Source: a virus
DNA length: 36,869 nt
IMG/VR virus record: IMGVR_UViG_3300009593_003648
Coordinates: 1 to 36,869 of that record
Strand: one strand, 5' to 3'
In this document: in pieces, positions 10,404 through 36,776 of the stretch
How positions within the stretch are numbered: position 1 is the first letter of the stretch
How the letters are laid out: each line of letters opens with the position of its first letter
Notes under the pieces: model-generated
What the model saw: only the letters and a program-made list of their open reading frames with translations
The model's database searches: none
Told to the model about the DNA's origin: nothing
Program-made: the position numbers and the translations under genes

Positions 10404-10479
10404 TGGTGGAGGATACTGGACTCGAACCAGCCACCTCCTGAATGCAAATCAGGCGCTCTCCCAGATGAGCTAATCCCCC
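10404..10479 (-). tRNA. tRNA-Ala (TGC)
   Basis: A 76-base cloverleaf on the minus strand. The acceptor strands GGGGGAT and ATCCTCC pair with one G-U, the anticodon stem CCTGA/TCAGG encloses loop TTTGCAT (anticodon TGC), and the T-loop reads TTCGAGT. Discriminator A and an encoded CCA are present. It is the last tRNA of the cluster. Confidence 0.95.
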
Positions 10480-10496
10480 TACACGTAATTATAATC

Positions 10497-10571
10497 TGGT
10501 AGTCCCTAGGAGAATCGAACTCCTCTTTGCGGTATGAAAAACCGCTGTCCTAACCGATAGACGAAGGGACC
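10497..10571 (-). tRNA. tRNA-Glu (TTC)
   Basis: A 75-base cloverleaf with anticodon stem GCGGT/ACCGC around TTTTCAT (anticodon TTC) and T-arm AGGAG/CTCCT with loop TTCGATT. The acceptor GGTCCCT/AGGGACT ends in a G-U pair at position 1-72, a small departure from the usual G-C. Discriminator A and CCA are encoded. Confidence 0.93.
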
Positions 10572-10574
10572 ACG

Positions 10575-10650
10575 TGGCGGAGCATACGGGAATCGAACCC
10601 GTGGTCTTCGCCGTGACAGGGCGACGTGTTAACCGCTACACTAATGCTCC
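10575..10650 (-). tRNA. tRNA-Asp (GTC)
   Basis: A 76-base cloverleaf with acceptor GGAGCAT/ATGCTCC, anticodon stem TCGCC/GGCGA around CTGTCAC (anticodon GTC), discriminator G as expected for aspartate, and an encoded CCA. Confidence 0.95.
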
Positions 10651-10655
10651 GTGAG

Positions 10656-10745
10656 TGGCGGAAGGACTGAGATTCGAACTCAGGAAAGAGTTGCCCCTTT
10701 GCCGGTTTTCAAGACCGGTGCATTCAACCACTCTGCCATCCTTCC
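10656..10745 (-). tRNA. tRNA-Ser (TGA)
   Basis: A 90-base class II tRNA with acceptor GGAAGGA/TCCTTCC, anticodon stem CCGGT/ACCGG around CTTGAAA (anticodon TGA) and the long variable arm required for serine. Discriminator G and CCA are encoded. Confidence 0.95.
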
Positions 10746-10813
10746 AAACCAAAATACTCCAAAATTACCAATATCGCCAAAAATACCAAATTAGGTGCGT
10801 TACTATGTAATGA

Positions 10814-10889
10814 TGGTGCCGCTTCACGGATTCGAACCGCGGACCTACTGATTACAAATCAGTTGCTCTACCAACTGAGCTAAAGCGGC
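10814..10889 (-). tRNA. tRNA-Thr (TGT)
   Basis: A 76-base cloverleaf with acceptor GCCGCTT/AAGCGGC, anticodon stem ACTGA/TCAGT around TTTGTAA (anticodon TGT), discriminator A and an encoded CCA. It is the first tRNA of the cluster; 68 bases with no visible gene separate it from tRNA-Ser. Confidence 0.95.
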
Positions 10890-11138: not shown

Positions 11139-11336
11139 ATGGGACGATTCGATCATTTACACAAAAAATTCCGTGAGCAAAGACTGAAAGAAAGAGCTAA
11201 TCACTCTTTAGCAAGTTCGAGACCAGTAGTTGCCGTAAATGGAAATGGTACATCAGGATATAGAATCAAGCAAGGTCCAAACAAGGACAAAGTTGCCGGT
11301 CATATGTCTGTGATCCACAAGAACAGCAAGATATAG
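11139..11336 (+). CDS. 65-residue basic protein under glutamine-riboswitch control
   Basis: The product is 65 residues and very basic in its first third (RFDHLHKKFREQRLKERAN), with a glycine-containing middle and a lysine-rich end; it has no membrane segment. AAGGAGG (11127-11133) five bases before the ATG is among the strongest ribosome-binding sites in the window. Position directly behind the riboswitch indicates that its synthesis follows the cell's glutamine level. By analogy with small peptides behind cyanobacterial glutamine riboswitches it might tune nitrogen metabolism, but sequence alone does not show this, and homology to those peptides is not claimed. Confidence 0.75.
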   Translation: MGRFDHLHKKFREQRLKERANHSLASSRPVVAVNGNGTSGYRIKQGPNKDKVAGHMSVIHKNSKI

Positions 11337-12836: not shown

Positions 12837-13034
12837 CTATTTACGATCGGGATTGGTAAGATGATCTAGTGTGATTACTTCAGTTTCGGGAAAAGTAAGA
12901 GTGTTATTTTTATCTTGTTCTGATTGTTTTTTGAACTTACGGGCGTTAGAACGTCTCTGTCTCTCTTCTTGTCTTTGTTGTTTCTTGAGAGATCGTTCTC
13001 CTCTTTGAGCTTTGTATGTGTAGTGTATTCCCAT
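12837..13034 (-). CDS. Highly charged small protein
   Basis: The product is 65 residues, dominated by Lys, Arg, Gln and Glu (LKKQQRQEERQRRSNARKFKKQ), predicted to be a single charged helix with a less charged tail. A +1-frame ORF covers much of the same DNA, but this frame has the ATG start and the cleaner position between neighbours. RNA or DNA contact is a possible role. Confidence 0.5.
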   Translation of the reverse strand: MGIHYTYKAQRGERSLKKQQRQEERQRRSNARKFKKQSEQDKNNTLTFPETEVITLDHLTNPDRK

Positions 13035-13055: not shown

Positions 13056-13784
13056 TTACTTATCAACAAATGCTTTCTCGTAAACAAAGTTTCCTTGCTG
13101 ACTTAAACTACCACCTTGCCAACCGTTCTCTTTTAACATTTCTATCATCTCTGAATTAAAGTCAGGCGATCCGCATAACATCACAGAATCATTCTCTGGA
13201 GTCATTGGTGGTACTTCTAGTTTAGAAAATACCTCTCCTGTTTTAATATGATCAGTGATCCTTCCTTTGTTTACCCACTCTTCTCTAGTTACTGTTGGAT
13301 AATACTGAATAAATTCTTGCACGGCTAAATTAAAAAAATAATCATAGTATGCAAGTTCTTTTACTGTACGAACTGTATGACACACTATAACTTTTTTAAA
13401 TTTTAGATATGTGTCTGCATCTCTGCAAATACTAACAAAAGGTGCTATTCCGGTTCCTGTACCAATTAACCAAAGTGTTGTATCTTTCTTTAAAGAATCA
13501 CAAAGTAAAGTTCCAACCGGTTTAGGTCCTATTAAAACTTCGTCACCTTGTTTTATATCTTTTAGTTGAGATGTTAATGGACCATCTGGAACAACAATAG
13601 ATAAAAATTCTAAATAGTCTTCTCCTGGACCACTTACTATAGAATAGGCTCTCATAGTTTTGTTATCCAATCCTATCATTGTAAACTGTCCAGCCTCAAA
13701 TCTTAAACCTGCGTTACGTGTTGTTTTAAATGAAAATAATTTGTCTGAATAATGTTTTGTTGATATTACTTTTTCTTTGTGCAT
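13056..13784 (-). CDS. fpr: Ferredoxin/flavodoxin-NADP(+) reductase
   Basis: The product is 242 residues, near the size of bacterial Fpr (about 250). The FAD-binding RAYS motif (45-48), the NADP-binding LIGTGTGIAPF (106-116), the LCGSPDFN motif and a C-terminal end FVYEKAFVDK, like alphaproteobacterial Fpr, are all present. The enzyme passes electrons between NADPH and ferredoxin or flavodoxin. It is the last gene of the radical SAM operon and starts five bases after the upstream stop, with a late-type TAAATA (13795-13790) just before its ATG. The context suggests that it feeds electrons, through a host ferredoxin or flavodoxin, to the two radical SAM enzymes; this is inference. Confidence 0.9.
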   Translation of the reverse strand: MHKEKVISTKHYSDKLFSFKTTRNAGLRFEAGQFTMIGLDNKTMRAYSIVSGPGEDYLEFLSIVVPDGPLTSQLKDIKQGDEVLIGPKPVGTLLCDSLKKDTTLWLIGTGTGIAPFVSICRDADTYLKFKKVIVCHTVRTVKELAYYDYFFNLAVQEFIQYYPTVTREEWVNKGRITDHIKTGEVFSKLEVPPMTPENDSVMLCGSPDFNSEMIEMLKENGWQGGSLSQQGNFVYEKAFVDK

Positions 13785-13788
13785 ACGA

Positions 13789-14721
13789 CTATTTAAACTT
13801 GGTCGCTAATTGGTCGAAGCCATTCCGGCACACGTCCAAATCACACTTGATAGCCTTTTGAAGCCATTGCACATCTCTTAGAAGAACGTTTCCTAATCTT
13901 TCTCCTTGTCCACACCAGCCACGTCTTACGTTTCCTCTTTTATCAACAATAAATTGATCAACACCGGCGTTGCATCTCCAACCTTTATAATTCCAGTTGT
14001 TTTTTATTCTTCCATCTTTTTTATCTACAAATTCTCTATTCATGTCATGCCTTGCGTGAGTGTGTCCATCATATTTTAAATTTCCAGTATACATTGTTTG
14101 TTCTGGATCCCAGTCTTGTCCTTTCTCTTCAAAATAATATTTTAACTGATATGTTTTGTAAGGATAAAATTGAAAACCTTTGGTAAAGTTAGAAAACAAA
14201 AGTTTTAATTCTGTTTTGTATCCTTTGTTTTTAAGTATTTGATAAACGTGTATTGCTTTGTTCCATTGGTCATCGAGATGTGTACAATGAACCATTACTT
14301 TAACTGCAAGTTTTTTTTCAATCAAAAAATCAATTACTTTTTCGATATGTTCTAGATTTGCAAATTCTGTGTGATAACTTATTTCAACTTGTGAAAAATA
14401 AACGTAATATTCTTCCCACCATTCTATGCTGGCACTTCCGTTTGTGGTTAACTTGTTGCTTAATTTTTGATTACCCATACGTTGACAAATAGCCAACAGT
14501 CCTGGATTCAACGTTGGCTCACCTCCTACAAATTCAAAGGACGGTTTTCTATCTAACATTCTCAAAGAAGAAACTGTGTATTGAACTGCGTTTGCGATGA
14601 TATCAGGATCATCGAATTTAGAATCATTAGAATGTAAAATTGTTGGACAATACGAACAATCGTAGTTGCACATATTTCCAAACAGCCATTGTATGCGATT
14701 TATTTTAGGTTGCTGTTCCAT
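13789..14721 (-). CDS. Radical SAM enzyme with C-terminal cysteine-rich (SPASM/twitch-like) region
   Basis: The product is 310 residues. The CxxxCxxC iron-sulfur motif is Cys18-Cys22-Cys25 (MCNYDCSYC), followed by FVGGEPTLNP, the GGE motif that holds the methionine of SAM. The C-terminal quarter adds cysteines in WRCNAGVDQF, RRGWCGQG and CDLDVC, the layout of an auxiliary-cluster twitch/SPASM region. The substrate is unknown; SPASM enzymes often modify peptides or small carbon-based molecules. It overlaps the PLP-enzyme gene upstream by 17 bases and lies just before fpr. Confidence 0.85.
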   Translation of the reverse strand: MEQQPKINRIQWLFGNMCNYDCSYCPTILHSNDSKFDDPDIIANAVQYTVSSLRMLDRKPSFEFVGGEPTLNPGLLAICQRMGNQKLSNKLTTNGSASIEWWEEYYVYFSQVEISYHTEFANLEHIEKVIDFLIEKKLAVKVMVHCTHLDDQWNKAIHVYQILKNKGYKTELKLLFSNFTKGFQFYPYKTYQLKYYFEEKGQDWDPEQTMYTGNLKYDGHTHARHDMNREFVDKKDGRIKNNWNYKGWRCNAGVDQFIVDKRGNVRRGWCGQGERLGNVLLRDVQWLQKAIKCDLDVCRNGFDQLATKFK

Positions 14722-15583
14722 TGTTATACGTATTTAAGTACAACAATGCTTCCTTCATTGGCACCGCTTTTACAATGTTTCCATTGTCGTCGGTAGAAAA
14801 TGCAACGTGAATTGCAGGACTGGGTGCTAAATTTTTACAGTGTTCTAAAATATAATCATAATGGTCACCGTATTTTGTCCACAAATAATCTGGACCAAAT
14901 TTATCCATAAACTTAATACCCGTCCAAAAATTTTGTTTGCAAGGTATAGAATCGTTATCGGTCATCCAAGTAACATATCCTGGCATGGGTGCTCTAGAAT
15001 ATCTCACACCGGATCTGTGTTCGCTGATTCCATATGCTTTTGTCAAACTGCAACTTACTGATTGTATTGCAGGATGATCTAAATCAAAAGTTATTCCGCG
15101 ACTGCACGGATACCATGCCGCGTCTACGTGTACAGGAATATTTTCATATAAACATTTTTCTAATATTTCAGGCATCTTTGGATGAACTCCGTAATTCTCT
15201 CCACAGAATGGCATTGATATCAACAGAATGTCTCCGTTCTTTAAAGTATCCAACGTCTTTATCTTTATATTTGGAAAAAGTTGATTATGATAAAAAAATT
15301 CTCCTTCCAGTATAACTACCCTGTTAGGATACATCATGTATAGGTCGTTTATGGCCTGAGTAACGCCAAGTATTATTCGCCTGTCAGGAAAAGCATCTAG
15401 GTTTAGCAATTTATTTGTTTTGTGAGCCTGCAACCAATCCGTAAAATTTTTTATATAATGATCAATTGGATAATCCCAAGTGTAATCAATAGTTTTTAGG
15501 TATGTACGCATCTCTTGATCGTAAATAGGACGTTTCCTTTTTGCTGTCCTGTCTATCAACGATTCTAATTTTTCAATATCCAT
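14705..15583 (-). CDS. Fold-type I PLP-dependent enzyme (aminotransferase-like)
   Basis: The product is 292 residues, roughly 100 short of a normal class I/V aminotransferase. HVDAAWYPCSRG carries the aspartate (Asp154) expected to contact the PLP ring, and SVSCSLTKAYG carries the candidate Schiff-base Lys182. ILGVTQAINDLY fits the phosphate-binding helix. The small C-terminal domain looks reduced. The start overlaps the stop of the upstream radical SAM gene (TAATG), and the end overlaps the next radical SAM gene, so all three are probably translated together. It could be a transaminase, a desulfurase-like enzyme or a decarboxylase. Confidence 0.75.
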   Translation of the reverse strand: MDIEKLESLIDRTAKRKRPIYDQEMRTYLKTIDYTWDYPIDHYIKNFTDWLQAHKTNKLLNLDAFPDRRIILGVTQAINDLYMMYPNRVVILEGEFFYHNQLFPNIKIKTLDTLKNGDILLISMPFCGENYGVHPKMPEILEKCLYENIPVHVDAAWYPCSRGITFDLDHPAIQSVSCSLTKAYGISEHRSGVRYSRAPMPGYVTWMTDNDSIPCKQNFWTGIKFMDKFGPDYLWTKYGDHYDYILEHCKNLAPSPAIHVAFSTDDNGNIVKAVPMKEALLYLNTYNNGTAT

Positions 15584-16785
15584 TACATTAATTCTTTCAA
15601 ATAATTTGCTTCGTCTTGTATTTGTATGCCTCTAATTGTGTTTAGCCAATTGGTATAATCTCGAAAAACTTTTTGAGTTTTATCCATTGTTGTTATCAAA
15701 GCACCTTGAAGAGTGTCATATTTTTTGGAAACATAATTTTCGTATGAATCAATTTGGTCGTCTGGAACACAACCAAGTGCTTTCAATTCTGGAACCATCT
15801 CATTAATTATTTTATCTTTATGAGTATCTGGCAACAAAGTCAATGCAGACATATAAGGTTCCCAAACAAAATTAAAACTGCAAGAAAATTTGCTAGACGA
15901 TAGGTCTTTAAAATATCTTATTGTGTCAACAACATTGAACACGTTGTAGATACTTACAGTAATGTTTACGCATATAGCATATAAGTTCAAATTAATAATT
16001 TTTTTATAATTACTTACTACCTTGTCAAATGAATATCCCCTTATCCATTCGTATATTTTTCCTGTGCCATCGATGCTTACGTTCAACTGCACGTTGGTGA
16101 GTTTGGATAATGTATCCAAAGTTTTTTGAGGTATGTGTGTAATGTTGCTGACCAACACTATTTTAAGATTGGGTTTAATTTCACTAATACGATCCAGTAA
16201 GTTCAAACAATTTTTATCGTACAATGGTTCTCCTCCCTTGATCATTAGTACCTCTAGTGTGTCCAAACGATCCATTATGCTATTAACAAACTTTTTGGAT
16301 AATGAAAAATACTTGTAGGGTTTGGATGGCCAATTTTTATTGAGTTCCATATCTTTCCTCAGAGACTCAGGCAAAGATTTTTCTTGTTGATACCATCCAG
16401 AACTATGGTTGTGGTTGCACATAGCACACGCCAGGTTACACTGATTACTGAAATTAATTTCGATCTGTTTAAGATGATGTATATCTTCCTTTGATCTATA
16501 TCTGTTGTATCTAAGCCTCTGGCTGTCCATCTTGGCACGTTCTCTTCTGTGGCAAGAACCACAAGCCGACACAACTTCATTGTTGGTCATCTGTTCTCGC
16601 ATTTTCATTATGGGTGCTGAATTAAAAATTTCGTCTATAGTAACTTCTTTTTGATTTAGGTCTGCTATTGGAAATTTGTCTGACATATTCCACACAGGAC
16701 AAGGTTGTGCGTTTCCATCTGCTGTTATAGTCAGTGTTTCAAATGGATGATAGCAAAAATACTTGTCCTTTGATAAATCTCTCAT
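15583..16785 (-). CDS. Radical SAM enzyme with N-terminal twitch domain
   Basis: The product is 400 residues. An N-terminal cysteine-rich module (Cys11, Cys29, Cys75 and Cys78: FCYHPF, QPCPVW, ACGSC) precedes the radical SAM core, which has Cys116-Cys120-Cys123 (QCNLACAMC) and the SAM-binding MIKGGEPLYD. Having the auxiliary-cluster twitch module in front of the core rather than behind it is a form I associate with marine phages. Its product is unknown. It is the first gene of the four-gene operon, with TAAATA (16797-16792) six bases before the ATG, and is divergent from the gene at 16813. Confidence 0.85.
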   Translation of the reverse strand: MRDLSKDKYFCYHPFETLTITADGNAQPCPVWNMSDKFPIADLNQKEVTIDEIFNSAPIMKMREQMTNNEVVSACGSCHRRERAKMDSQRLRYNRYRSKEDIHHLKQIEINFSNQCNLACAMCNHNHSSGWYQQEKSLPESLRKDMELNKNWPSKPYKYFSLSKKFVNSIMDRLDTLEVLMIKGGEPLYDKNCLNLLDRISEIKPNLKIVLVSNITHIPQKTLDTLSKLTNVQLNVSIDGTGKIYEWIRGYSFDKVVSNYKKIINLNLYAICVNITVSIYNVFNVVDTIRYFKDLSSSKFSCSFNFVWEPYMSALTLLPDTHKDKIINEMVPELKALGCVPDDQIDSYENYVSKKYDTLQGALITTMDKTQKVFRDYTNWLNTIRGIQIQDEANYLKELM

Positions 16786-16812: not shown

Positions 16813-17598
16813 ATGAAACTTGTATTTGATCATACAGTGGGCAAACAAGAGGATCAAGACCTTGTGTTATGCAGACCACTTGCAATAGTAGAACCAGAAG
16901 AAGAAGCAGAAGCAATAGAACAAGGCTGGTTGGCATTGGATTATCCTTTAAACGAGCAAGAAGTATTTTATCAATCTCGTTCAACCAGAATAACACTAGA
17001 AGATTGGGAACCAAAATTCAAAACGTGGAAAATTGACAACGAGGAAATTCGTTTAAAACATATCGAGGCAAATCACCTTGTTAAACTTTTAGGATTGCCA
17101 AACATCTACAAACAATACATGAAGCGAAAAGGATTTAAAATGGACTATGATCCATTTACACATATGCACAAACGAGACAGTTTCTTAATTTTTTATGTTA
17201 AAGAAATGGACAACATAGTTGGCTTCACAAAACTTAAATCATATATGTATCAGGAAGATGCATTTGGACGTTACACTAACCAACTGGGAGATGATCTCGA
17301 TGAAATTACTTTTGCCGCATATGAATCTTGCCTGCACTGTAATACACATCCAATATCACAGATTACTTTAGATATGGAAATTAAATGGGCAAAAGATAGA
17401 GATGCCCATCATTATTATTTAGGTTCCGGATATGAAAACTCTTCGTCATACAAAAGCAAACAGAAAAACTTTGAATGGTGGACAGGCACCTACTGGTCTA
17501 AATCGAAAAAACAATATCAAAAATTATGCAGAAGCGATTCTCGGACAACTACTTTGCAGGACGTCTCCAAGGTCCCGTCACTTCTTTTTCGTAGTTAG
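16813..17598 (+). CDS. ATE/GNAT-fold transferase-like protein
   Basis: The product is 261 residues from the ATG at 16813, chosen because TAAATA ends five bases before it; ATGs at 16798 and 16807 are alternatives. The central and C-terminal part has IFYVKEMDNIVGFTKLKSY and then HYYLGSGYENSSSYKSKQKNFEWWTG, a strand-turn-helix order like the acyl-transferase core of arginyl-tRNA-protein transferases and related GNAT proteins (YxYLGxYI...Y K). It may therefore transfer an amino-acyl or acyl group to an amine. Assignment is tentative. It faces the radical SAM operon across a very short shared promoter region. The last 50 bases overlap the convergent gene. Confidence 0.5.
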   Translation: MKLVFDHTVGKQEDQDLVLCRPLAIVEPEEEAEAIEQGWLALDYPLNEQEVFYQSRSTRITLEDWEPKFKTWKIDNEEIRLKHIEANHLVKLLGLPNIYKQYMKRKGFKMDYDPFTHMHKRDSFLIFYVKEMDNIVGFTKLKSYMYQEDAFGRYTNQLGDDLDEITFAAYESCLHCNTHPISQITLDMEIKWAKDRDAHHYYLGSGYENSSSYKSKQKNFEWWTGTYWSKSKKQYQKLCRSDSRTTTLQDVSKVPSLLFRS

Positions 17599-18052
17599 GA
17601 TCCCAATTTTTATAATAGTCAGTAGTATTACGTAATATATCTGAGAACTTGTTCAGTTTAGTTAGACTTTGTACAAGGAACAGAATATAAGTTCCGTTGT
17701 TTAATTGTATGTCTTTCACAGATTCTTTTATGTCAGGGTGATCTTCCAGTACCACAATGTCATGTCGCATAAAATATCCGTTGAGATCTTCTGCAAGTTT
17801 TACAGTTTCGTCTGCTGTGAATTGATCCGGTTGTGCTATCATGCACAGCACATCTTTTTCTTCAAAATCAAAATTAAAAATGTGTCCGTACAGTGTGGCA
17901 TAATCGGCCACTCCGTCCAGTTCCAAAAACTCGACTTTGTCTTCAAGTATGGCTTTTTGAGCAAAAGGACACGGTGGTAAGTTTCCAAACACAGGATTAG
18001 GTTTGGTAACAAATTCACTGATCCATTTTTTCACGTCATCGGTTGCTGTCAT
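17549..18052 (-). CDS. Conserved-looking protein of unknown function
   Basis: The product is 167 residues, soluble, beginning MTATDDVKKWISEFVTKPNP with a PCPFAQKA segment (about 27-34) followed by alternating strands and helices. The proline-cysteine-proline N-terminal motif and mixed alpha/beta layout suggest a small enzyme or binding domain. I recall similar N-terminal motifs in other marine phage hypotheticals but cannot name the family. It is divergent from the DUF6614-like gene. Confidence 0.6.
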   Translation of the reverse strand: MTATDDVKKWISEFVTKPNPVFGNLPPCPFAQKAILEDKVEFLELDGVADYATLYGHIFNFDFEEKDVLCMIAQPDQFTADETVKLAEDLNGYFMRHDIVVLEDHPDIKESVKDIQLNNGTYILFLVQSLTKLNKFSDILRNTTDYYKNWDPNYEKEVTGPWRRPAK

Positions 18053-18071
18053 TAAATATCTCTGTTATAAT
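18043..18071 (+). promoter_or_regulatory. Sigma70-type promoter for the amidinotransferase pair
   Basis: TTGCTG (18043-18048), 17-base spacer and perfect TATAAT (18066-18071). Initiation near 18078 gives a leader of about nine bases to the ATG at 18087. Its -35 lies inside the start of the divergent gene. Confidence 0.65.
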
Positions 18072-18086
18072 ATATTTAAAGGACAC

Positions 18087-18422
18087 ATGGCAGATATCTA
18101 TCACATTTGGGCAGACCATCACAAGGACGTAGACGCATACGATTTTGCAAAGAAGATGCGTAAGTTTCTGGACGGTTTGGTTGATTTGGGCAGGATGAAG
18201 AGTTATCGTTTGACTCGAGCCAAGTTGGGTTTTAGGTCAATGGATCTACCAGAGTTTCACATCATGATGGAATTTGAAAATATGCAACAACTGGATGACG
18301 CAATGACTTCCGTGTTGCGTAATGAGAAAAACATAGACGAAGCACACGTGTCTTTCAATCAACTTGTGGACAAGGACACCATACAGCATTTCTTATACAG
18401 AGACTTTCCTGATGACATATAA
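18087..18422 (+). CDS. DUF6614-like small protein
   Basis: The product is 111 residues. MADIYHIWADHHKDVDAYDFAKKM, the RLTRAKLGF segment, EFHIMMEFENMQQLDDAM and the C-terminal YRDFPDD match the pattern I know from DUF6614, a family common in alphaproteobacteria, with a predicted ferredoxin-like (dimeric alpha/beta barrel) fold. The start is preferred at 18087 over upstream codons because of AAAGGA and the promoter. Its stop overlaps the amidinotransferase start by 11 bases, so the two are translationally coupled and probably functionally linked. Biochemical role unknown. Confidence 0.65.
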   Translation: MADIYHIWADHHKDVDAYDFAKKMRKFLDGLVDLGRMKSYRLTRAKLGFRSMDLPEFHIMMEFENMQQLDDAMTSVLRNEKNIDEAHVSFNQLVDKDTIQHFLYRDFPDDI

Positions 18423-19614
18423 AGTAAACAGTTGGGACGAGTTCTCTCCACTCAAAACATTAATACTTGGTAGTGTGTTTGACACAACATTTTTTGACGC
18501 AATCAAAAATCAAAAGATACAGTATGCATTAAAGAAAGTGTTTGAAGAAACACAAGAAGATCTAGAAGCATTCCGGACACAGATGCAATCACATGGTATC
18601 AAAGTATTCCAAGCACAGCCAACAGAAATGGGATACAAAACTTCCATAATGGACTACATCGACGAGGAAGGTCGCATAGGATACACACAGAAATCAGAAA
18701 AAACCAGAACCAATCTAGTACCGGCTCCCCCTTTGCAGGTCAGAGATGAAACAATAGTGATGGGCAACAAAGTGTTTGTCACTGAACACGCATTCACCGT
18801 AGAGATGTTGAGACCTTATTACACAGAATGGTTTGGAGAGGACAACTGTAACTTTAGGGTGTTGGATGGCCATATAACCGGTAGAAGAACCAACCAGAGT
18901 ATCAGCAGTTGGCTCAAACGTTACGGCAAAGAAAGAGGGTTTGGCAACAAAACAGATTACAAGCAACTGACCACAGAAGAATTAGAAAAAATAAATGAAC
19001 AGCACAGGGTACCAGGATTCTGTGCACCAAACATAACTCGTATAGGCAAACACTGTCTTGTGGACGTGTGGCAAACACCAGACATAAAAGAAATAATGTC
19101 CATGGAATATCCTCAGTTTAATTACAACGAAATTAGTCTCGGAGGACACAACGACAGCATATTCTCTGTGCTGAAACCCGGTGTTGTCATTGCCGCAGAT
19201 TGGGTAAGGGAAAACAATCTACAAGCATCATTTCCTAATTGGGAAATTGAATATTTTGCCGATCCCAACTGGAACTCTGTTAACAAATGGTTACAACTCA
19301 AAGAAGTCAACAAAGGTGCTTGGTGGGTACCCGGACAAGAGGATAACTCACAGTTCACACATTTTGTTGAACAATACCTAGGAAACATGACAGGCGAAGT
19401 GGAAGAAACAGTGTTTGATGTCAACTGTCTAGTGCTGGACGACAAGCACGTTGTAGTTAATAGTGATAATCCACAACTAACCGCCTATCTGCGTAAGCAC
19501 AATTTAGAGCCAATATTTTCTCCGTTCAGAAATAGATTCTTCTTCGACGGTGGGTGGCATTGTTTAACATTAGATATAGAACGGGTAGGAATTCAAAAAG
19601 ACTACGGTCTGTAG
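18412..19614 (+). CDS. Amidinotransferase (GATM/StrB-like)
   Basis: The product is 400 residues, close to glycine amidinotransferase size. The catalytic cysteine is Cys384 in FFDGGWHCLTLDIER, the classic GG-x-HC pattern. The histidine/aspartate pair probably lies in SLGGHNDSIFSVLKPGVVI, and VNCLVLDDKHVVV corresponds to the conserved strand before the active-site loop. Family members move an amidino group from arginine to an amine (glycine, inosamine phosphates); arginine deiminases are relatives. The acceptor here is unknown. It follows the DUF6614-like gene in an overlapping pair and is succeeded by a hairpin at 19627-19649. I know of few phage examples. Confidence 0.85.
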   Translation: MTYKVNSWDEFSPLKTLILGSVFDTTFFDAIKNQKIQYALKKVFEETQEDLEAFRTQMQSHGIKVFQAQPTEMGYKTSIMDYIDEEGRIGYTQKSEKTRTNLVPAPPLQVRDETIVMGNKVFVTEHAFTVEMLRPYYTEWFGEDNCNFRVLDGHITGRRTNQSISSWLKRYGKERGFGNKTDYKQLTTEELEKINEQHRVPGFCAPNITRIGKHCLVDVWQTPDIKEIMSMEYPQFNYNEISLGGHNDSIFSVLKPGVVIAADWVRENNLQASFPNWEIEYFADPNWNSVNKWLQLKEVNKGAWWVPGQEDNSQFTHFVEQYLGNMTGEVEETVFDVNCLVLDDKHVVVNSDNPQLTAYLRKHNLEPIFSPFRNRFFFDGGWHCLTLDIERVGIQKDYGL

Positions 19615-19681: not shown

Positions 19682-19705
19682 CTGCACATCTGTAAATAAT
19701 TGGTG

Positions 19706-20839
19706 ATGCAATATTCTTTAGTAATAATAAAAAATTACGATCTAATGGATTGCGTCAGAGACTATTTCTATCAATCCTTGATGCCCCATGGTTTCCACAG
19801 CACTTCTGTTTGTGACAAAGAACAAATAGATTTGACTTTGAGGGAACTTAAAACAAGCCACGCAGTTGTTATAGAAGAGGGTATGTTTTTCAAAAATAAC
19901 CTAATGCCTCCCAAACACACTGATTACGATCTTGTAGGACATATACTTGATCGAAAAGAGAAATATTATGAACTACACAGACAGCATTTTATCATCAATG
20001 TGGAAAAATGGAAGGAGTTAAGGGCACCAGCATTCATCACACAAGAAGTTGGATCAGTCACTGAAGTGAAAAGGTCACAAGATAACTTCCACGACGATTA
20101 CACACCTACTTGGATCGAAACTAAAAATGTACAAAATATAAAAAAAACAAAGTTGAGGCACGGCGGCCACGTAATAAGTGAATTCTTAAAAGCGGGTCTT
20201 AGAGTGAGACCATTTGACAAGGAAGAGAGATCGTCTAAAAACTTTGTGTATTACGATGAGTCAGAACAGATCAGTAATGCATTGTCTATTGCACAACTAT
20301 CTCGACCGAATTCTTTCTATTATCCAAAAGCAACTTCATACAACGAAAAAATATTTTGGAGATGTTATCCAACTTACGTTTCTGTCGCTAACGGAGTTGA
20401 AAGCCTATATAAGATTAAAAATGTCTATCCATGGATCAACGAAATAATCTTTTATGATGTATCTCTTCCTGCGTTGATTTTTACAGAGCTCTTGATAAAA
20501 AAATACACAAAAGATTATAAAAGTTTTGTGCAGGAATACGAAAAAGAGACCGGTGCAAGTCAATACAACAAGTCTTATGATTCCATTGATTGCCTTGACG
20601 ATTATACCAATCCAGAAGAAATTTTACCTGTGTTGGAACATATCAGGAAAAATGTAAAAGTTCAATATTGTTTTGGCGACATAACACGCACATCTGTTAT
20701 TGAAGAATTGCAAACTGACACTCTTATAAATTTAAGTAATGTGTTTCAATATAAATTTAATATATTAAGGGCACACGAACAAGAATATTGGAATAGGAAG
20801 ATCGAAGAATTAAGTGTCAAAACTGAAATTTTGACCTAA
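19706..20839 (+). CDS. Large protein of unknown function
   Basis: The product is 377 residues and soluble. The start at 19706 is seven bases after a TAAATA box (19693-19698). The N-terminal half has strands and an acidic stretch (SHAVVIEEGMFFKNN), and INVEKWKELRAPAF around residue 96 is reminiscent of sugar-transferase proteins. The C-terminal half has YVSVANGVESLY and NEIIFYDVSLPALIFTELL, a Rossmann-like pattern. A two-domain glycan enzyme or methyltransferase is possible but not established. Its last 30 bases overlap the convergent hydroxylase-like gene. Confidence 0.5.
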   Translation: MQYSLVIIKNYDLMDCVRDYFYQSLMPHGFHSTSVCDKEQIDLTLRELKTSHAVVIEEGMFFKNNLMPPKHTDYDLVGHILDRKEKYYELHRQHFIINVEKWKELRAPAFITQEVGSVTEVKRSQDNFHDDYTPTWIETKNVQNIKKTKLRHGGHVISEFLKAGLRVRPFDKEERSSKNFVYYDESEQISNALSIAQLSRPNSFYYPKATSYNEKIFWRCYPTYVSVANGVESLYKIKNVYPWINEIIFYDVSLPALIFTELLIKKYTKDYKSFVQEYEKETGASQYNKSYDSIDCLDDYTNPEEILPVLEHIRKNVKVQYCFGDITRTSVIEELQTDTLINLSNVFQYKFNILRAHEQEYWNRKIEELSVKTEILT

Positions 20840-21478
20840 CCAACTTCTTTCTAGTAAAGGTAAAAATCTTTTCATATCCTTTGTACCAGATGCAATTATG
20901 TGCAGTCTCGCTTCATTGCTTCTATTCCAAACTGAATGTTGTTGTCCTATATCAACAACGAATGCACTGCCGTTTGTGAAAGGTATGGTTCCGTGATTTT
21001 TATATCTGAATTCACAACCTTTGGGATTGTAGATTGACACATTAACAGGACCTAAACATCTTTTATCCTCGTCTTGATGAGGTAGTATATATCCGTCTGG
21101 CTCTATCCACATGAATCTCAATCGACTGTATGATTTGTAAGGAAATACATTTTTAAAAAAATTGGTAGTGACAGGACATCTGTCCGCTACCCAGGTCCAT
21201 TTGTATTCTGGTTCCTTGTCAAATTCATTATAATACATCCAGTCGTTTGTGTATTGTGCATCTACTCCATGGATGCAAAGGCTTTTCCAAGTACCTCCGC
21301 CTTCGTGTTCTCTATGCACAACAAATTTATCTTTGATTGCCAATGCTTCTTGGTGTATCTCTTCCCATGGGATCTGCAAATCTAATCTCACATACGGAAC
21401 AGTGGTATCCTCTTGTAGCCAGGTGAAGATGTCTTTGTTGTTGTAATCAGGTGTAAAATGTTTTTCAAGTTTATCCAT
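20810..21478 (-). CDS. Aspartyl/asparaginyl beta-hydroxylase-like oxygenase
   Basis: The product is 222 residues. The double-stranded beta-helix core has LPHQDED with the HxD iron pair, GPVNVSIYNPKGCEFRY, and VVDIGQQHSVWNRSNEARLHII with the third histidine and the arginine that binds 2-oxoglutarate. This order is typical of the Asp/Asn hydroxylase family. It should hydroxylate a side chain or a related small molecule using Fe(II), O2 and 2-oxoglutarate. Substrate unknown. TAAATA (21490-21485) lies six bases before the ATG. It is the second 2OG-oxygenase-type gene in the window. Confidence 0.75.
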   Translation of the reverse strand: MDKLEKHFTPDYNNKDIFTWLQEDTTVPYVRLDLQIPWEEIHQEALAIKDKFVVHREHEGGGTWKSLCIHGVDAQYTNDWMYYNEFDKEPEYKWTWVADRCPVTTNFFKNVFPYKSYSRLRFMWIEPDGYILPHQDEDKRCLGPVNVSIYNPKGCEFRYKNHGTIPFTNGSAFVVDIGQQHSVWNRSNEARLHIIASGTKDMKRFLPLLERSWLGQNFSFDT

Positions 21479-30835: not shown

Positions 30836-31300
30836 ATGATTAAAAAGATAAGAAGTACTAAAAAACACTTAACAAAACAGTTCAAAAGAACTCTGGATTT
30901 GAAATCAAATGTGGCTGGTTATAAGCCAACACCGATGGTTTGTAATCATTGGTACAGAAAATTAAACACAATTTTGTTTAATAATAGACTAGGTCCTGTA
31001 ATGATAGAGATTAAAAGACTTCATAATGATTGGGGAAGATGTGTAGTTGATTGGGATAATAGAAAAACACCAAAAGGAAAGTTTGATCAAAGAGTCATTC
31101 CTTACCATATACCATGCTCATATAAGATACAACTAATAACAAAGTATCCAAAATGGCAAGATTTTATTGAAACATTAGCACACGAAATGGTACATTTATA
31201 TCAAATGACTGTACTAAAAGATCCATATAGCAATCATAATGCTAACTTTTATTCTTTTAGAAACAAATTTAAGTCTGCTGGCTTAAAACTTTACCGATAA
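30836..31300 (+). CDS. SprT-like zinc metalloprotease
   Basis: The product is 154 residues. The zinc motif HEMVH (116-120) in TLAHEMVHLYQ and a third histidine in SNHNANFYS (about 134) give the HExxH...H pattern of the SprT/Spartan family. The first 30 residues are basic. Cellular Spartan proteases clear DNA-protein crosslinks; here DNA-linked protein removal or virion/host protein processing are both possible. It begins only four bases from the -35 of the divergent replication promoter. Its 3' end overlaps the convergent gene by 32 bases. Confidence 0.75.
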   Translation: MIKKIRSTKKHLTKQFKRTLDLKSNVAGYKPTPMVCNHWYRKLNTILFNNRLGPVMIEIKRLHNDWGRCVVDWDNRKTPKGKFDQRVIPYHIPCSYKIQLITKYPKWQDFIETLAHEMVHLYQMTVLKDPYSNHNANFYSFRNKFKSAGLKLYR

Positions 31301-32057
31301 AGTCGGCATAAGACATCACACTATGATTTTCAAACGGAATTACCTGTACGTAATCAGGTGGATTGTCATGTACAACTGTAAATTTACAATACGGTCTTCG
31401 TTTACAAATACTTCTGTATTGTTGTAACCATGGTTCGAATATAGTATCACCGTGTCTAGGGCCGTAATTGTCAGTGTCCTGGTATATGTTGTTTAATTGA
31501 TCTTTACCGTATTCTCTAAAATCAAAACCAACCAAATATATATTTTTGTGTCCGTGCATACAAGCAGTCCAAAAAGCGGCAGAGCCCGAAATCCAATGTG
31601 GATTGTGAGGTATTAAATGTAGTCTTCTTTTAGATCTATTGAACTCTAAAGCAGGAGCATAACAAATACATTTCTCAAACACTTTATCATCTACAATTTT
31701 TTGAGATATAAATCTATCAACCATAAACAAATAGTCAGGAATAAAATCTCTATACAAGGCATTACAACCGTATGTCTGTCCTGTATTCTTAAGTGTATCT
31801 AAATTTAATTTATCTTTTCTCGATGGACCATTTCCAATGATGTATGCATTTCCTTTAGGCACTGCATTTACTCTATCGGGACAAAATTCTCTTTCCTCTA
31901 TTTTTTGTCCTTTTCTAATCACCATTTTCATGATAACTTCTTCGCCTTGATATGGTGTCCACTCAATTGGCTGATCTGGGTCTGGTCTTCCTATATTAAT
32001 CTTTTGCATTATTTTTTTATGTATTTCTCCTCTAGTCTTTTTCTTATTCTTGCCCAA
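31269..32057 (-). CDS. DUF115/MAF-like putative glycosyltransferase
   Basis: The product is 262 residues. AYIIGNGPSRKDKLNLDTLKN (about 71-91), TYGCNALYRDFIPDYLFMVD and SGSAAFWTACMHGHKNIYLVGFDF match the pattern of DUF115-type proteins (related to motility accessory factors and sialyltransferase-like enzymes), with the glycine-rich nucleotide-binding start and the GFDF segment. It probably attaches or handles a nonulosonic-type or other sugar. It is the last gene of the glycan block and overlaps the capsule-like gene by 49 bases. Confidence 0.6.
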   Translation of the reverse strand: MGKNKKKTRGEIHKKIMQKINIGRPDPDQPIEWTPYQGEEVIMKMVIRKGQKIEEREFCPDRVNAVPKGNAYIIGNGPSRKDKLNLDTLKNTGQTYGCNALYRDFIPDYLFMVDRFISQKIVDDKVFEKCICYAPALEFNRSKRRLHLIPHNPHWISGSAAFWTACMHGHKNIYLVGFDFREYGKDQLNNIYQDTDNYGPRHGDTIFEPWLQQYRSICKRRPYCKFTVVHDNPPDYVQVIPFENHSVMSYADFIGKVLSQQT

Positions 32058-32887
32058 GGTTTACCTTCTCTAAATTCTTCTGTAAACCATTCAGTGTATG
32101 CTAAACGATTTGCCCAATTTTGTCTAGCCGGCATTGCCGGGTGCATTATATCTGATAAATCAGTATTGCCAACATCGTGACATAAACTTTTTTCAGACAC
32201 AAATACAGGTATACCATGTATTACTGCCTCCATGGCAGGATTAGAACTATGATTTACCACAGCCCAAGTAGATTTAAGTATTTTTTTAAAATCAGTATCA
32301 TCGTAAGTACCCCAATCTCTTTTTGGCAAATTTACTCTTACGTGTTTATATTTTTCTTCAGGAAAATTATGAACAATATTTCTAGGATGTGGTCTTACAA
32401 CAATTGGCTTATCTGTATATCTACGAATTTCTTCAATGCAATTTTTGAAATATGATTTCATACCAGGATTTTCTCTCCACTGGTGACTATTGTGATGTTG
32501 TCCGCATATTACAATTACATTACCTGATTGTTTCCAAGGTAATAATTGATGATTAAACAACGGCCACCTCTTATCATCAAACGTATCATTGGCGAAATCT
32601 GCCTCTCTGTTTATTCCGTTGATACCCATCTTGAATGATGAATTTCTTCTTAGGCCACCTACTTCTAGTACTACTACAGGTCTACCTGTGCTTCTAAATT
32701 GTTCCCATACCTTCTTGTTTGCTTCCATCCTGCCTTGCCAAAGCACTGACCAAATAACGGCTACATCACAATTTCTATCTTCGTTGATAAAAACTTTTTC
32801 ACCTTTGGATTTTAAGTGTTCAATCAATGCGGCAAATACCGGTCTACCATTTAAACTAGAATATTCCGGATACAGTGCTATTCTCAT
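32009..32887 (-). CDS. Capsule/LPS polysaccharide-synthesis-like protein
   Basis: The product is 292 residues. KPIVVRPHPR (about 165-174) and AVVNHSSNPAMEAVIHGIPVFVSE (about 208-231) are the two diagnostic segments of KpsC/KpsS- and CDP-glycerol-transferase-like GT-B proteins: the RPHP stretch and the SS(N)xxxEAxxxGxPV site that contacts the donor nucleotide. It probably transfers a sugar. It overlaps the upstream epimerase gene by 4 bases. Confidence 0.65.
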   Translation of the reverse strand: MRIALYPEYSSLNGRPVFAALIEHLKSKGEKVFINEDRNCDVAVIWSVLWQGRMEANKKVWEQFRSTGRPVVVLEVGGLRRNSSFKMGINGINREADFANDTFDDKRWPLFNHQLLPWKQSGNVIVICGQHHNSHQWRENPGMKSYFKNCIEEIRRYTDKPIVVRPHPRNIVHNFPEEKYKHVRVNLPKRDWGTYDDTDFKKILKSTWAVVNHSSNPAMEAVIHGIPVFVSEKSLCHDVGNTDLSDIMHPAMPARQNWANRLAYTEWFTEEFREGKPWARIRKRLEEKYIKK

Positions 32888-33819
32888 TTGACCTGACTTT
32901 TTACATATTCAAATGTATTTTTTAAACCTTGCTCTAGTGGATAGTTTGGTTTCCAGCCAGTGAGTTTCATTATTTTTGTATTGTCTGAATTTCTTCTCAT
33001 ACATCCAGCCGGTCCTGCCGGTAGATATTTTTTCTTAATTTTTTTGCCTGATATATCGATCAACATATCTGCAAGTTGTGTCATTGTAATTGCTTCATCG
33101 GAACCCATATTGATTGGAATTTCAATATCATTCTCAATAAGTTTATCAAGACCGATCATTAAATCGTCTACATAACAAAACGATCTTATCTGTGTTCCAT
33201 CTCCCCATATTTCAATTTCTCCAGGATCGTCCGCTTGTAAAATTTTTAAACAAGTTGCCGCGACTACTTTAGAGTTATAAAAAATATCACAGTGTGGTCC
33301 ATACATAGCATGGAATATTGGTAGAGAAATTCTCATATGATAACTTTTTGCGTACTCTTGAGCAAGTTGCATATTGTAAAGTTTCTCCATACCGTAAATG
33401 TTTCCTGCCGGTTGAGCCGGCCATATGTGTTCGTCTTCGTTTAGGTCTGGACCGTTATGTCCTTGATAATCTGTGTTATAAATCATTGCCGACACGGCAT
33501 ATATAAAATGAGAATTATTTTGTGCCGCAAAATCCATTGCTTGGATTGTTTGAATTGGATTACTTCTTCCTGTCGTTAACTGTGCAGATCCTACTTGTTT
33601 TGAGTTAGGTACATCTGCAGAAAGATGGTACACTCTTTCAAAATCGTTATCTATTGTTATTCTAGATTCCATATCGTGACCTATAAACTCGTCAACAAAT
33701 ACAGGATCACCAACTTTTAGTTTCTTGTCTATTCCTACGACATAGTGTCCTTGTTTCTTTAAATGTTGTGCTAAATTTTTACCAATAAATCCCTGACAAC
33801 CTGTAATAAGTGCTTTCAT
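32884..33819 (-). CDS. NAD-dependent sugar epimerase/reductase (GDP-mannose 3,5-epimerase-like)
   Basis: The product is 311 residues, an extended SDR enzyme. It has the Rossmann GxxGxxG (GCQGFIG, 7-13), the catalytic Tyr142-x-x-x-Lys146 (YGMEK) with Ser110 in VSAMIYN, and the substrate-site segment GDGTQIRSFCYVDD. EDEHIWPAQPAGNIYGMEKL resembles the corresponding part of GDP-mannose 3,5-epimerases. ColC-type epimerase-reductases are an alternative, and the ColD-type enzyme two genes upstream makes that attractive. TAAATA (33830-33825) is five bases before the ATG. Confidence 0.75.
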   Translation of the reverse strand: MKALITGCQGFIGKNLAQHLKKQGHYVVGIDKKLKVGDPVFVDEFIGHDMESRITIDNDFERVYHLSADVPNSKQVGSAQLTTGRSNPIQTIQAMDFAAQNNSHFIYAVSAMIYNTDYQGHNGPDLNEDEHIWPAQPAGNIYGMEKLYNMQLAQEYAKSYHMRISLPIFHAMYGPHCDIFYNSKVVAATCLKILQADDPGEIEIWGDGTQIRSFCYVDDLMIGLDKLIENDIEIPINMGSDEAITMTQLADMLIDISGKKIKKKYLPAGPAGCMRRNSDNTKIMKLTGWKPNYPLEQGLKNTFEYVKSQVK

Positions 33820-33835
33820 ATCGATATTTACAAAC

Positions 33836-34708
33836 CTAATCCTTTATAGTTTTCCAATATGAGTGCTTTTGTTTTGTTGTTAAATCACTTCTTTTAGAAC
33901 TCATTCTTGATTTACGTGAGAAGCCTTTCATATGATCCATGTATTGTCCAAGTTCGGAATTTATAAAAGGATGTTTTGCTCTCCTTTTACCTGCAAATCT
34001 CCCGTCATTCAAATCTTCATTTTTAATTTTACCTGCTTGTTCCATTTCAATTCTTACAGCATCAAACGTAAATGAATCTGTATAACCTGCAATAGGAAAA
34101 TGATTTAAAAATCCTTTTTGTATATTAAAAAATAGATCCTCTGTATAATACTGTTCCCATCTTTTAAAAAACTCTTCTGCGTATTTGTGTGCTGTATTAA
34201 AAGCATAATATCCAGTTTCTGAAAATCCTTTTTTAGGTCTACCCAAATACGATGTAAAAGCAGTATCGGGAATAATATGTTCTAACCATGTCATAGGAAT
34301 TTTTTCAAACGTTAATAAATCAGCATCTAAAAACCATAACATATCAGGTTTAGTTCTTTGCCAAGCATCAATACAGGCAAAAACTTTGTAACTAAATCTA
34401 ACAGCATCGTACACATATATAGATGTGTCTTTATCAAATCCTTTTTGTTCTTCTGCGTTTTGTTTTATTCGAGGATTAAGTTCTGGATTGTTTTTGTGTC
34501 TATCAATAAACTCTTGTAATTTTGGTTGTGCTTTACACAAATCAATATATTCTGTACGTGGCAAATCTATTTTTTGCGACATATCGTCTGGATAAAATAA
34601 AATCTTTGCGTGGTCTGGCCAATTTTTAATAGTGCTTTCTATACAAGGCTTTACTGGATTGGGCCAATATTTCGTTCCCCAAGTTGTTGCAATAGTTAAT
34701 GATTTCAC
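33836..34708 (-). CDS. GT-A-like protein, paralogue 1
   Basis: The product is 290 residues. It opens SLTIATTWGTKYWPNPVKPCIESTIKNWPDHAKI and has a DxD motif in MLWFLDADLLTF (about 125-136), followed by a GYYAFNT segment and a C-terminal HMKGFSRKSRMSSKRSDL. These match the layout of the protein at 35862-36776, including the KxWPD and LDAD segments. It is probably a sugar-nucleotide glycosyltransferase. Its start overlaps the dehydratase gene end by 4 bases. Confidence 0.55.
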   Translation of the reverse strand: MKSLTIATTWGTKYWPNPVKPCIESTIKNWPDHAKILFYPDDMSQKIDLPRTEYIDLCKAQPKLQEFIDRHKNNPELNPRIKQNAEEQKGFDKDTSIYVYDAVRFSYKVFACIDAWQRTKPDMLWFLDADLLTFEKIPMTWLEHIIPDTAFTSYLGRPKKGFSETGYYAFNTAHKYAEEFFKRWEQYYTEDLFFNIQKGFLNHFPIAGYTDSFTFDAVRIEMEQAGKIKNEDLNDGRFAGKRRAKHPFINSELGQYMDHMKGFSRKSRMSSKRSDLTTKQKHSYWKTIKD

Positions 34709-35862: not shown

Positions 35863-36776
35863 TAATTTCCTTTTTTGTCTACTTTAGATACTATATCGTT
35901 TGCTTGTTTTGGATTGAACCCTCCTTTAGCAAACGGATCATAATTTTCAACTGATTTCCAGTAGTCTTCTGTTCTGTCTGTTCGTAAATCACTAGCAGAA
36001 CTTTTTCCTTTAATTTTTCTTTTACCTTTCATATGATCAATATAAGATCCTAAAACACTGTTAATAAAAATATGATGTCCTTTTGCACCTGCACCTTTAC
36101 CAATGTCATAACCACTAGTGGGTGAAACTTGTTTTAATACTTGCCAAAAAATATAAGAATCGTGCCATTCTAAATGTTTAAAAATCTCATCGCTTTTATA
36201 TAAGTCTACCCACGTATCTATAAATCTATCCATCATTGCATGATGTAAATTATAACTTACAAAACCACATTCAGGATATTTTTCTCCTCTGCCTAAATAA
36301 TTTACAAGTTTATCCATTGGTATTAAATCAAGTATGAATTCTTTTGGAATTGGTCTAAAAGTGTATGTGTCAGCATCTAGCCATAATACAACATCGGTCT
36401 TTAAATTTTTTACTGCGTGTGCAACACAAAAAGTTTTATGAGCAAATCTAACTGCGTCCCATAGAAAAGATCCTTTACCTTTGTCATTGTGACCGGCTTC
36501 TGGTCTCCTTCTCACACCGCCTTCGATTTCATCTAACTCTCCGTTAGCGACTGGATCGTTTTTGTGTCTTTCTTTAAACGCAACTAGGTCTGGATTTACT
36601 TTTTCTAAATCAATGTATTCTATTTTTTCGTGTTTGATTGGTGGTAATTCTTTTTCGTAGTACACATAAAGTTTTACATCATTGGGCCAGTTTTCTATAA
36701 AACTTTCTATCATTCTTTTTCCGTATGCCTCCCAACGATTTGGTGGGAAAGTTGTTATAACCGCTAATGATCTCAT
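35862..36776 (-). CDS. GT-A-like protein, paralogue 2
   Basis: The product is 304 residues from the ATG at 36776; the frame is open further to 36824 but the downstream start aligns with its paralogue. MRSLAVITTFPPNRWEAYGKRMIESFIENWPNDVKL, VVLWLDADTYTFRPIP (about 133-148) and HMKGKRKIKGKSSASDLRTDRTEDYW correspond segment by segment to the protein at 33836-34708. A DxD-type glycosyltransferase is likely. The stop overlaps the dehydratase start. It heads the glycan block. Confidence 0.55.
   Translation of the reverse strand: MRSLAVITTFPPNRWEAYGKRMIESFIENWPNDVKLYVYYEKELPPIKHEKIEYIDLEKVNPDLVAFKERHKNDPVANGELDEIEGGVRRRPEAGHNDKGKGSFLWDAVRFAHKTFCVAHAVKNLKTDVVLWLDADTYTFRPIPKEFILDLIPMDKLVNYLGRGEKYPECGFVSYNLHHAMMDRFIDTWVDLYKSDEIFKHLEWHDSYIFWQVLKQVSPTSGYDIGKGAGAKGHHIFINSVLGSYIDHMKGKRKIKGKSSASDLRTDRTEDYWKSVENYDPFAKGGFNPKQANDIVSKVDKKGN

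Follow-up and report, generated by a model that had tools for sequence, protein, structure and literature searches.

What would a large aquatic bacterial virus do with two radical SAM enzymes, a PLP enzyme and a ferredoxin/flavodoxin-NADP reductase encoded side by side? The window, the 36,869-nt record IMGVR_UViG_3300009593_003648 to which all coordinates refer, derives from such a virus; names of the form L0xx or L1xx denote the viral loci compared with it. Four open reading frames lie on its minus strand in the order rSAM1-PLP-rSAM2-FNR, from 16785 down to 13056 (Table 1), next to helicase and primase genes for DNA copying. A first-pass annotation took them for one self-powered biosynthetic pathway. 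The tight co-directional packing that it reported is present, with overlaps of 1 base between rSAM1 and PLP and 17 bases between PLP and rSAM2; the last gap, between rSAM2 and FNR, is 4 bases long instead of five. Scans for promoters and terminators gave chance level only, and defence-system models returned a single result, a viperin-like echo of rSAM2.

The first-pass annotation had also left room for an arrangement found only here by chance. The same order occurs in the sister viruses L017 and L018 and, at 40-68% identity, in the diverged phage contig L038, and all four genes are under strong purifying selection (dN/dS 0.06-0.10 against the sister virus). Given this selection and the order kept in L038, the set is not a chance assembly.

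Table 1. Features of the radical SAM locus and the adjoining genes.
Feature	Position	Strand	Basis
FNR, bacterial ferredoxin/flavodoxin-NADP reductase, 242 aa	13056..13784	-	PF00970, PF00175, 6rr3, motifs
rSAM2, radical SAM enzyme, viperin/QueE-like core, four C-terminal cysteines, 310 aa	13789..14721	-	PF04055, conserved Cys
Divergence break	14586..14785		against L018: upstream rSAM1-PLP 79-94% DNA identity, downstream rSAM2-FNR 95-98%
PLP, compact predicted fold-type I PLP enzyme, family seen in viral contigs only, 292 aa	14705..15583	-	AlphaFold2 model, Foldseek, invariant residues
rSAM1, N-terminal SPASM/twitch radical SAM enzyme (N_Twi_rSAM family), 400 aa	15583..16785	-	NF033640, SPASM, CX3CX2C
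ATE_C-like (arginyl-tRNA-protein-transferase-like, GNAT-type) protein	16813..17598	+	PF04377 in family, 7wfx
DUF6875-like protein, conserved in block	17549..18052	-	weak match, below Pfam cut-off
DUF6614 protein, 112 aa	18084..18422	+	PF20319, 88.5 bits against 25
AmT, pentein amidinotransferase-like, 400 aa	18412..19614	+	profile matches, conserved GGWHC motif, invariant residues
Unassigned protein; module membership uncertain	19700..20839	+	co-occurrence with OG20810 in some rSAM islands
Asp/Arg beta-hydroxylase-like, 2OG/Fe(II) type by family; module membership uncertain	20810..21478	-	PF05118, 47.3 bits against 22.6

Identity of the four enzymes

The enzyme classes read from the sequence at first pass were borne out by NF033640, PF04055, PF00970/PF00175 and an AlphaFold2 fold, as were the two different arrangements of auxiliary cysteines. 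rSAM1 is a member of the N_Twi_rSAM family (NF033640; 239.9 bits, cut-off 170, model positions 2-397 of 398), for which we know of no assigned reaction. Its N-terminal SPASM domain (residues 11-79) is followed by the Radical_SAM domain (110-277), and cysteines 11, 29, 75 and 78 stand in front of the CX3CX2C motif at 116. rSAM2 belongs to the radical SAM superfamily (PF04055; 30.2 bits, cut-off 29.5), with the CX3CX2C motif as CNYDCSYC at 18 (conserved Cys 18/22/25) and conserved cysteines behind, at 250, 270, 293 and 298. It scored below the cut-off of 180 for prokaryotic viperin (NF038283; 42.7 bits, N-terminal part only) and below those of the QueE equivalogs (27-29 bits; cut-offs 206-260).

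FNR exceeds both of its Pfam cut-offs (PF00970, 25.8 vs 21.1; PF00175, 35.1 vs 22), carries the motifs RAYSI, GTGIAPF and CGSP, and by sequence looks functional. Its closest solved relative is 6rr3 (E 1.7e-73, residues 6-257 of 257), and it is 46-51% identical to cellular Fpr-type homologues in public records; it scored 132.2 bits against the E. coli-type Fpr equivalog NF008178 (cut-off 390). It thus matches the bacterial subclass I Fpr reductases over their full length, but differs in being encoded by phages, and in every virus found to have it the gene follows rSAM2 immediately. Profiles for two carrier types, Flavodoxin_1 and Fer2, had no match in this record and 13 related records (fragments), and the carrier of FNR is therefore probably the host's. 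Of the proposed self-sufficiency in electrons, the reductase stands and the carrier does not. Fe-S A-type carriers were present in 4 of 20 radical SAM-rich viral records.

The PLP protein had no family match by sequence in Pfam, NCBIfam or PHROGs, and no significant relative in the PDB when searched alone or with its alignment. Structure prediction, recommended by the first-pass annotation, gave pLDDT 42 from three near-identical sequences; with 21 viral homologues it reached pLDDT 90.9 and pTM 0.89 and yielded a fold-type I model (Foldseek, CobD 1lc8, E 5.6e-11; VIA Z 18.7). Residues D154, S179, K182 and R190 are invariant in the 21-row alignment, and the pattern D154, S179-x-x-K182 and R190 (K+8) repeats the spacing of residues S255, K258 and R266 in AspAT. 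On this model the protein is a predicted fold-type I PLP enzyme with the pyridine-N Asp, Schiff-base Lys and phosphate Arg pattern. Its best fold matches, HisC, CobD (threonine-phosphate decarboxylase) and the MalY/PatB C-S lyases (Z about 18), share the Asp/Ser/Lys/Arg cofactor pattern, but it is about 60-100 residues shorter and 6-17% identical to them, and the likeness to CobD and HisC (11-17%) is one of general fold. Beyond residue 197 the window's protein contains no Arg, and it therefore seems to lack the C-terminal one that usually binds a carboxylate.

We collected 45 distinct viral PLP homologues, nearly all beside radical SAM genes. Twenty came from an unbiased PLP scan, in which a radical SAM gene lay within 3.1 kb of every distinct copy (20/20) and within 2 kb of 17. 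A first scan of cellular genomes gave no match, and a profile search of 369 genomes gave general PLP-enzyme echoes only (18-24 bits). The single match of a pattern scan of 84,980 genomes, the MAG contig L038, was rejected as a cellular carrier, its helicase being 87% identical to that of this virus, as in a stray phage contig. A sequence search of 50,697 phage records returned none at 1e-5 and chance matches only at 10, among them H55, rejected as antisense to annotated genes.

Two inherited couples

The rSAM1 and PLP genes overlap or abut in the window and in L016-L018, L019, L020, L021, L022, L038 and L058; in L028 a B12-type radical SAM gene splits them. rSAM1 belongs to the NF033640 family, whereas its overlap with this PLP gene is peculiar to the couple. 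rSAM2 and FNR were adjacent in 7/7 viral loci of the FNR scan, as well as in L038. The four-gene order common to L017/L018 and, in diverged form, L038 would fit a single indivisible pathway, as first annotated, but this is very improbable: rSAM1-PLP occurs without rSAM2-FNR in L019, L020 and L021, rSAM2-FNR without rSAM1-PLP in L063 and L196-L199, and the synonymous divergence of the couples differs five- to seven-fold, values of 0.14-0.17 giving way abruptly to 0.8-1.0 where PLP meets rSAM2. This break points to separate recent histories. rSAM1-PLP is thus one inherited couple and rSAM2-FNR a second. In radical SAM-rich islands, that two genes lie near each other counts for little as evidence, and independent weight for association comes from the radical SAM-poor contigs (L019-L022, L038 and the window), which represent few lineages.

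The adjoining amidinotransferase block

The unit was also drawn too small at first pass. PLP and radical SAM genes recur with a block of ATE-like, DUF6875-like, DUF6614 and AmT genes, adjacent here (16813-19614), in about 12 further distinct viruses. In a scan for AmT, PLP lay within about 8 kb in 14 of 23 loci and the rest of the block was present in most; the recurrent order is PLP-QueC-like-rSAM-rSAM-DUF6614-AmT-DUF6875-like-ATE-like. The block is absent from the sister virus L018 and is therefore inessential to the couple.

The AmT profile A5 matches HsvA 5wpi (E 7e-12), SxtG, StrB1 and AGAT. The HsvA match spans HsvA 324-386, around GGSFHC/GGWHC, and this catalytic Cys region of the pentein fold places AmT, as judged from its sequence, among putative amidinotransferases of the AGAT/StrB/HsvA kind. 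PF04377 is matched by 12 of the 16 proteins in the ATE-like family, at E 6e-6 in the best case, but not by the one encoded in the window, and the arginyltransferase 7wfx is matched at E 0.0016; the start at 16813 was set by comparison with L058. DUF6614 was found at 24 loci of the compared set and in some bacterial chromosomes, where its partner genes were absent from the short stretches around it.

Possible products and relation to known clusters

The biosynthetic character proposed for the set is supported. The module, selected, exchangeable and recurrent in dozens of other viruses, probably makes a modified amine-bearing compound. Judging from fold and family, we tentatively read it as a virus-borne biosynthetic module of exchangeable couples with an amine or guanidine product, an assignment that we hold at a little short of even confidence. 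Electrons from NADPH would pass through FNR to a flavodoxin or ferredoxin of the host, and the reduced carrier would fire the [4Fe-4S] clusters of rSAM1 and rSAM2. Both radical SAM enzymes may activate C-H bonds of one amino-acid-like substrate shared with PLP, which could carry out decarboxylation, transamination or C-X lyase chemistry on it to give an amine. In viruses that have the block, AmT might move an amidino group from arginine onto an amine of this kind, yielding a product that the ATE-like transferase might conjugate. Most likely, the end product would be a small molecule, an amine or a guanidine compound, that serves the virus itself while it infects the cell.

We favour such an amino-acid-derived compound over a modified peptide or DNA. 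SPASM/twitch architecture is common among peptide maturases, and rSAM1 has it, with a weak echo of SkfB 6efn; the radical SAM enzymes might then crosslink or oxidise a RiPP-like peptide, or a virion or host protein, with the PLP enzyme acting on the modified residue. Proteins are also the substrates of ATE-like transferases, and the search for a conserved short reading frame nearby, suggested at first pass, did find one, encoding a basic 65-aa protein (12837-13034) directly downstream of the module; its stop and the start of a different radical SAM gene overlap in about 20 related viruses. As a precursor peptide, however, this candidate was judged weak: it is conserved at both ends, without a variable core or Cys, and its position is conserved within one phage lineage. 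No other short open reading frame was found at the couple, peptide-acting PLP enzymes are uncommon, and we consider modification of a peptide or protein unlikely, if still worth serious attention.

A role in remodelling glycans or surface polysaccharides, whether by making a sugar with an amino or guanidino group or by decorating glycans of the host or virion, appears rather improbable. The window has DegT-type aminotransferase and NAD-epimerase-like genes at 32.9-35.9 kb, StrB1 is among the AmT profile matches, a cyanophage amidinotransferase lies next to KdsA/KdsB, the CP220 cluster discussed below adjoins two nucleotide-sugar-transferase-like genes, and pelagimyophage radical SAM cassettes sit in an LPS-gene-rich region (PMC7029224). 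However, the window's sugar genes lie at a distance of about 12 kb, the conserved block has no glycosyltransferase, and the PLP fold is closest to HisC, CobD and C-S lyases, not to DegT sugar aminotransferases. Published thymidine hypermodification pairs radical SAM with PLP enzymes to build side chains, and the helicase and primase beside the module and the QueC-like proteins of some related islands would suit a role in phage DNA. We nonetheless rate such a role as highly unlikely. The module profiles had no match in phage M6 between 25 and 59 kb, the part covered; the window showed no recognisable gene for hydroxymethyl-dUMP or a base kinase, and an unsystematic look recognised no FolE or QueD alongside the QueC-like genes.

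Clusters of radical SAM genes in phages have been published before, as has the combination of such genes with an amidinotransferase. Campylobacter phages CP220 and CPt10 have 11-12 radical SAM genes per genome and a swappable cluster of five with a putative glycine amidinotransferase (Timms et al., 2010; PMC2853527), phage-borne and exchangeable as here. Profile searches set CP220 apart, with no homologue of PLP, FNR, DUF6614, the ATE-like protein or the DUF6875-like protein. None of its radical SAM proteins resembles the N_Twi family, the rSAM1 profile reaching no more than 5.6 bits, and at 32 bits its amidinotransferase is a remote relative of AmT. Marine phages, too, carry many radical SAM genes together with Fe-S support genes: the T4-like ocean viral genome TARA_ERS488813_N000010 encodes an A-type Fe-S carrier besides 12 radical SAM enzymes (PMC5332604), and pelagimyophages have their radical SAM cassettes (PMC7029224). 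The portions of these two papers available mention no PLP enzyme, FNR or block, and set these phages apart by description only. The literature searched held no description of the PLP family, the rSAM1-PLP couple, the FNR or the conserved block, so the first-pass view of an undescribed system holds for this combination, but not for phage radical SAM-amidinotransferase clusters as such.

More broadly, large aquatic phages may share a pool of exchangeable radical SAM-centred couples that build virus-specific natural-product-like compounds, with a virus-evolved PLP family that has no counterpart in cells and, in some phages, an electron supply of their own; we offer this as a conjecture that is possible, if on balance doubtful. 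Reports of phages that carry a dozen radical SAM genes go back to 2010 and assign no function to them. The rSAM1-PLP couple, the reductase-bearing second couple and the conserved block turn this anonymous crowd into a few testable enzyme teams. If a viral metabolite is indeed made, it would represent new virus-made chemistry in widespread aquatic phages.

Gene families and their viral setting

The four ORFs of the first-pass annotation lie on the minus strand as described there; the overlaps of 1 and 17 bases also stand, but the last gap is 4 bases and not five. rSAM1 is a member of NF033640 (239.9 bits, cut-off 170) with a twitch domain in front. The core of rSAM2 is viperin/QueE-like, but scores far below the cut-offs of both families, and its four C-terminal cysteines are conserved. 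FNR matched bacterial-type ferredoxin-NADP reductase over its full length, with ~50% identity to the nearest cellular copies sampled. dN/dS against L018, a sister virus, was 0.06–0.10 for each of rSAM1, PLP, rSAM2 and FNR. The sequence comes from an IMG/VR virus record (36,869 bases) whose helicase has its nearest relatives in PA5oct-like and other large myovirus records (~50% identity).

Features of the window
Feature	Position	Strand	Remark
tRNA cluster	10404-10889	-	five genes: Ala, Glu, Asp, Ser, Thr
Glutamine riboswitch RF01739	11066-11117	+	63.6 bits (cut-off 35)
65-aa ORF	11139-11336		just downstream of riboswitch
Basic 65-aa protein	12837-13034	-	conserved across >30 phage contigs (L166-L192 among loci)
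FNR	13784-13056	-	
rSAM2	14721-13789	-	
PLP	15583-14705	-	
rSAM1	16785-15583	-	
Block beside rSAM1	16813-19614		ATE_C-like, DUF6875-like, DUF6614, amidinotransferase-like
Second cluster	31269-36869	-	NAD-epimerase-like gene, two glycosyltransferase-like paralogues; possibly surface-sugar genes
DegT-type aminotransferase	34705-35862	-	PHROG 3139, in second cluster

In L018, the region corresponding to the tRNA cluster holds one further N-twitch radical SAM gene. In ~20 contigs, the stop of the basic 65-aa protein gene (12837-13034 family) overlaps the start of another N-twitch radical SAM gene, and the protein is a possible accessory or substrate of that adjoining enzyme.

Two couples and a neighbouring block

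The viral records are all fragments without an assigned host, and gene starts in contigs other than the window were set mechanically. The order rSAM1-PLP-rSAM2-FNR, which the first-pass annotation proposed to search for elsewhere, was kept in L017/L018 (same virus group) and in diverged L038 (40, 61, 68 and 68% identity to the window, respectively). The proposal that the four genes form one unit found no support in that form, as the couples also occur separately. rSAM1-PLP was found without adjoining rSAM2-FNR in L019, L020, L021 and L022, although L022 carries a diverged rSAM2-like gene at a distance of several kb. rSAM2-FNR was found without rSAM1-PLP in L063/L196-L199, where rSAM2 lies ~200 bases after the helicase. 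rSAM2 was directly upstream of FNR in 7/7 loci of an FNR scan; L058/L062 have rSAM2 without FNR and a B12-type radical SAM gene between rSAM2 and PLP. An inserted gene of the same type splits rSAM1 and PLP in L028. Against L018, dS was 0.78 for rSAM1 and 1.01 for PLP, versus 0.17 for rSAM2, 0.14 for FNR and 0.15 for the helicase, and DNA identity shifts near 14.6–14.8 kb. One exchange over rSAM1-PLP, possibly including the neighbouring block, would account for both patterns.

This block encodes an ATE_C-like protein beside rSAM1 (12/16 family members match PF04377), a DUF6875-like protein, DUF6614 and a predicted pentein amidinotransferase-like protein (AmT). An amidinotransferase scan gave 23 viral loci, 14 with PLP (~12 without identical copies), and most had the rest of the block. 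Several contigs show the order PLP, QueC-like, rSAM, rSAM2-like, DUF6614, AmT, DUF6875-like, ATE-like. Since L018 lacks the block and has an SGNH-hydrolase-like gene (labelled by eye) in its place, the block is an associate and not a necessary part of the rSAM1-PLP couple.

Radical SAM genes are common in marine viruses (PMC7150976, PMC9301287); T4-like ocean genomes carrying 12 of them (PMC5332604) and pelagimyophage cassettes (PMC7029224) have also been described. In the Campylobacter phages CP220 and CPt10, five radical SAM genes and a putative glycine amidinotransferase form a swappable cluster (PMC2853527). However, the CP220 cluster has no PLP, FNR, DUF6614, ATE-like or DUF6875-like homologue, and its amidinotransferase is remotely related to AmT. 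No description of the rSAM1/PLP/rSAM2/FNR combination was found in the full-text literature, with most subscription papers and preprints outside coverage.

A compact viral PLP enzyme

The window PLP had no family match in Pfam, NCBIfam or PHROGs, and 0/21 homologues matched PHROGs. A degenerate pattern at the DNA level, encoding H[VI]DAAWYP, picked up diverged relatives, and the resulting alignment led to 23 viral loci. The AlphaFold2 model (21 members; pLDDT 90.9, pTM 0.89) was closest to CobD, Pad-1 and HisC among solved structures in Foldseek (E 5.6e-11 to ~1e-9); a second aligner ranked C-S lyases and aminotransferases together (Z 17–19, rmsd ~4.3). As its alignments of 264–273 residues span the entire chain, the enzyme, previously called shortened, is indeed compact throughout but misses no domain. 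D154, S179, K182 and R190 are invariant; the Ser at K-3 and Arg at K+8 match the spacing in aspartate aminotransferase. The window protein has no Arg beyond residue 197, which makes ordinary alpha-amino-acid transamination less likely.

The sole relative in the cellular genomes scanned was L038, whose contig had been binned with a Proteobacteria MAG. Its helicase is 87% identical to that of the window virus, so L038 is probably a phage contig; beyond it, 369 genomes of its class, searched by profile, returned just 18–24-bit echoes of ordinary PLP enzymes. Loci reached via one gene are biased towards that gene's neighbours, and part of the 45 distinct viral copies were gathered this way; the unbiased figure thus comes from the PLP scan, in which the nearest radical SAM gene lay within 2 kb for 17/20 distinct copies and within 3.1 kb for 20/20. 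Many copies sit in radical-SAM-rich islands, several records having 13–15 Radical_SAM matches each, a count that takes in distant family members. The islands at L031/L032, L023, L026, L053, L139 and L141 (~10–15 radical SAM genes) are far richer than the window, with further QueC-like, methyltransferase-like, kinase-like, nitroreductase-like, 2OG-oxygenase-like and B12-type radical SAM genes.

Proposed chemistry and electron supply

Beyond the observed families, fold, selection, couples and co-occurrence, rSAM1 and PLP would most likely work one after the other on a single amino-acid-like substrate, and the amidinotransferase, where present, may guanidinylate an amine. Candidate final targets are a free metabolite, glycan, protein or DNA. 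FNR would pass NADPH electrons to host flavodoxin or ferredoxin, which would fire the radical SAM clusters. Profiles for Flavodoxin_1 (PF00258) and Fer2 (PF00111) detected no phage carrier of these two types in 14 fragmentary records. Fe-S A-type carriers (PF01521) occurred in 4/20 rSAM-rich viral records, with one or two genes per record (those of L036, L044, L106 and L139). These carriers fit a wider tendency, suggested in PMC5332604, of phages to support the radical SAM enzymes that they encode.
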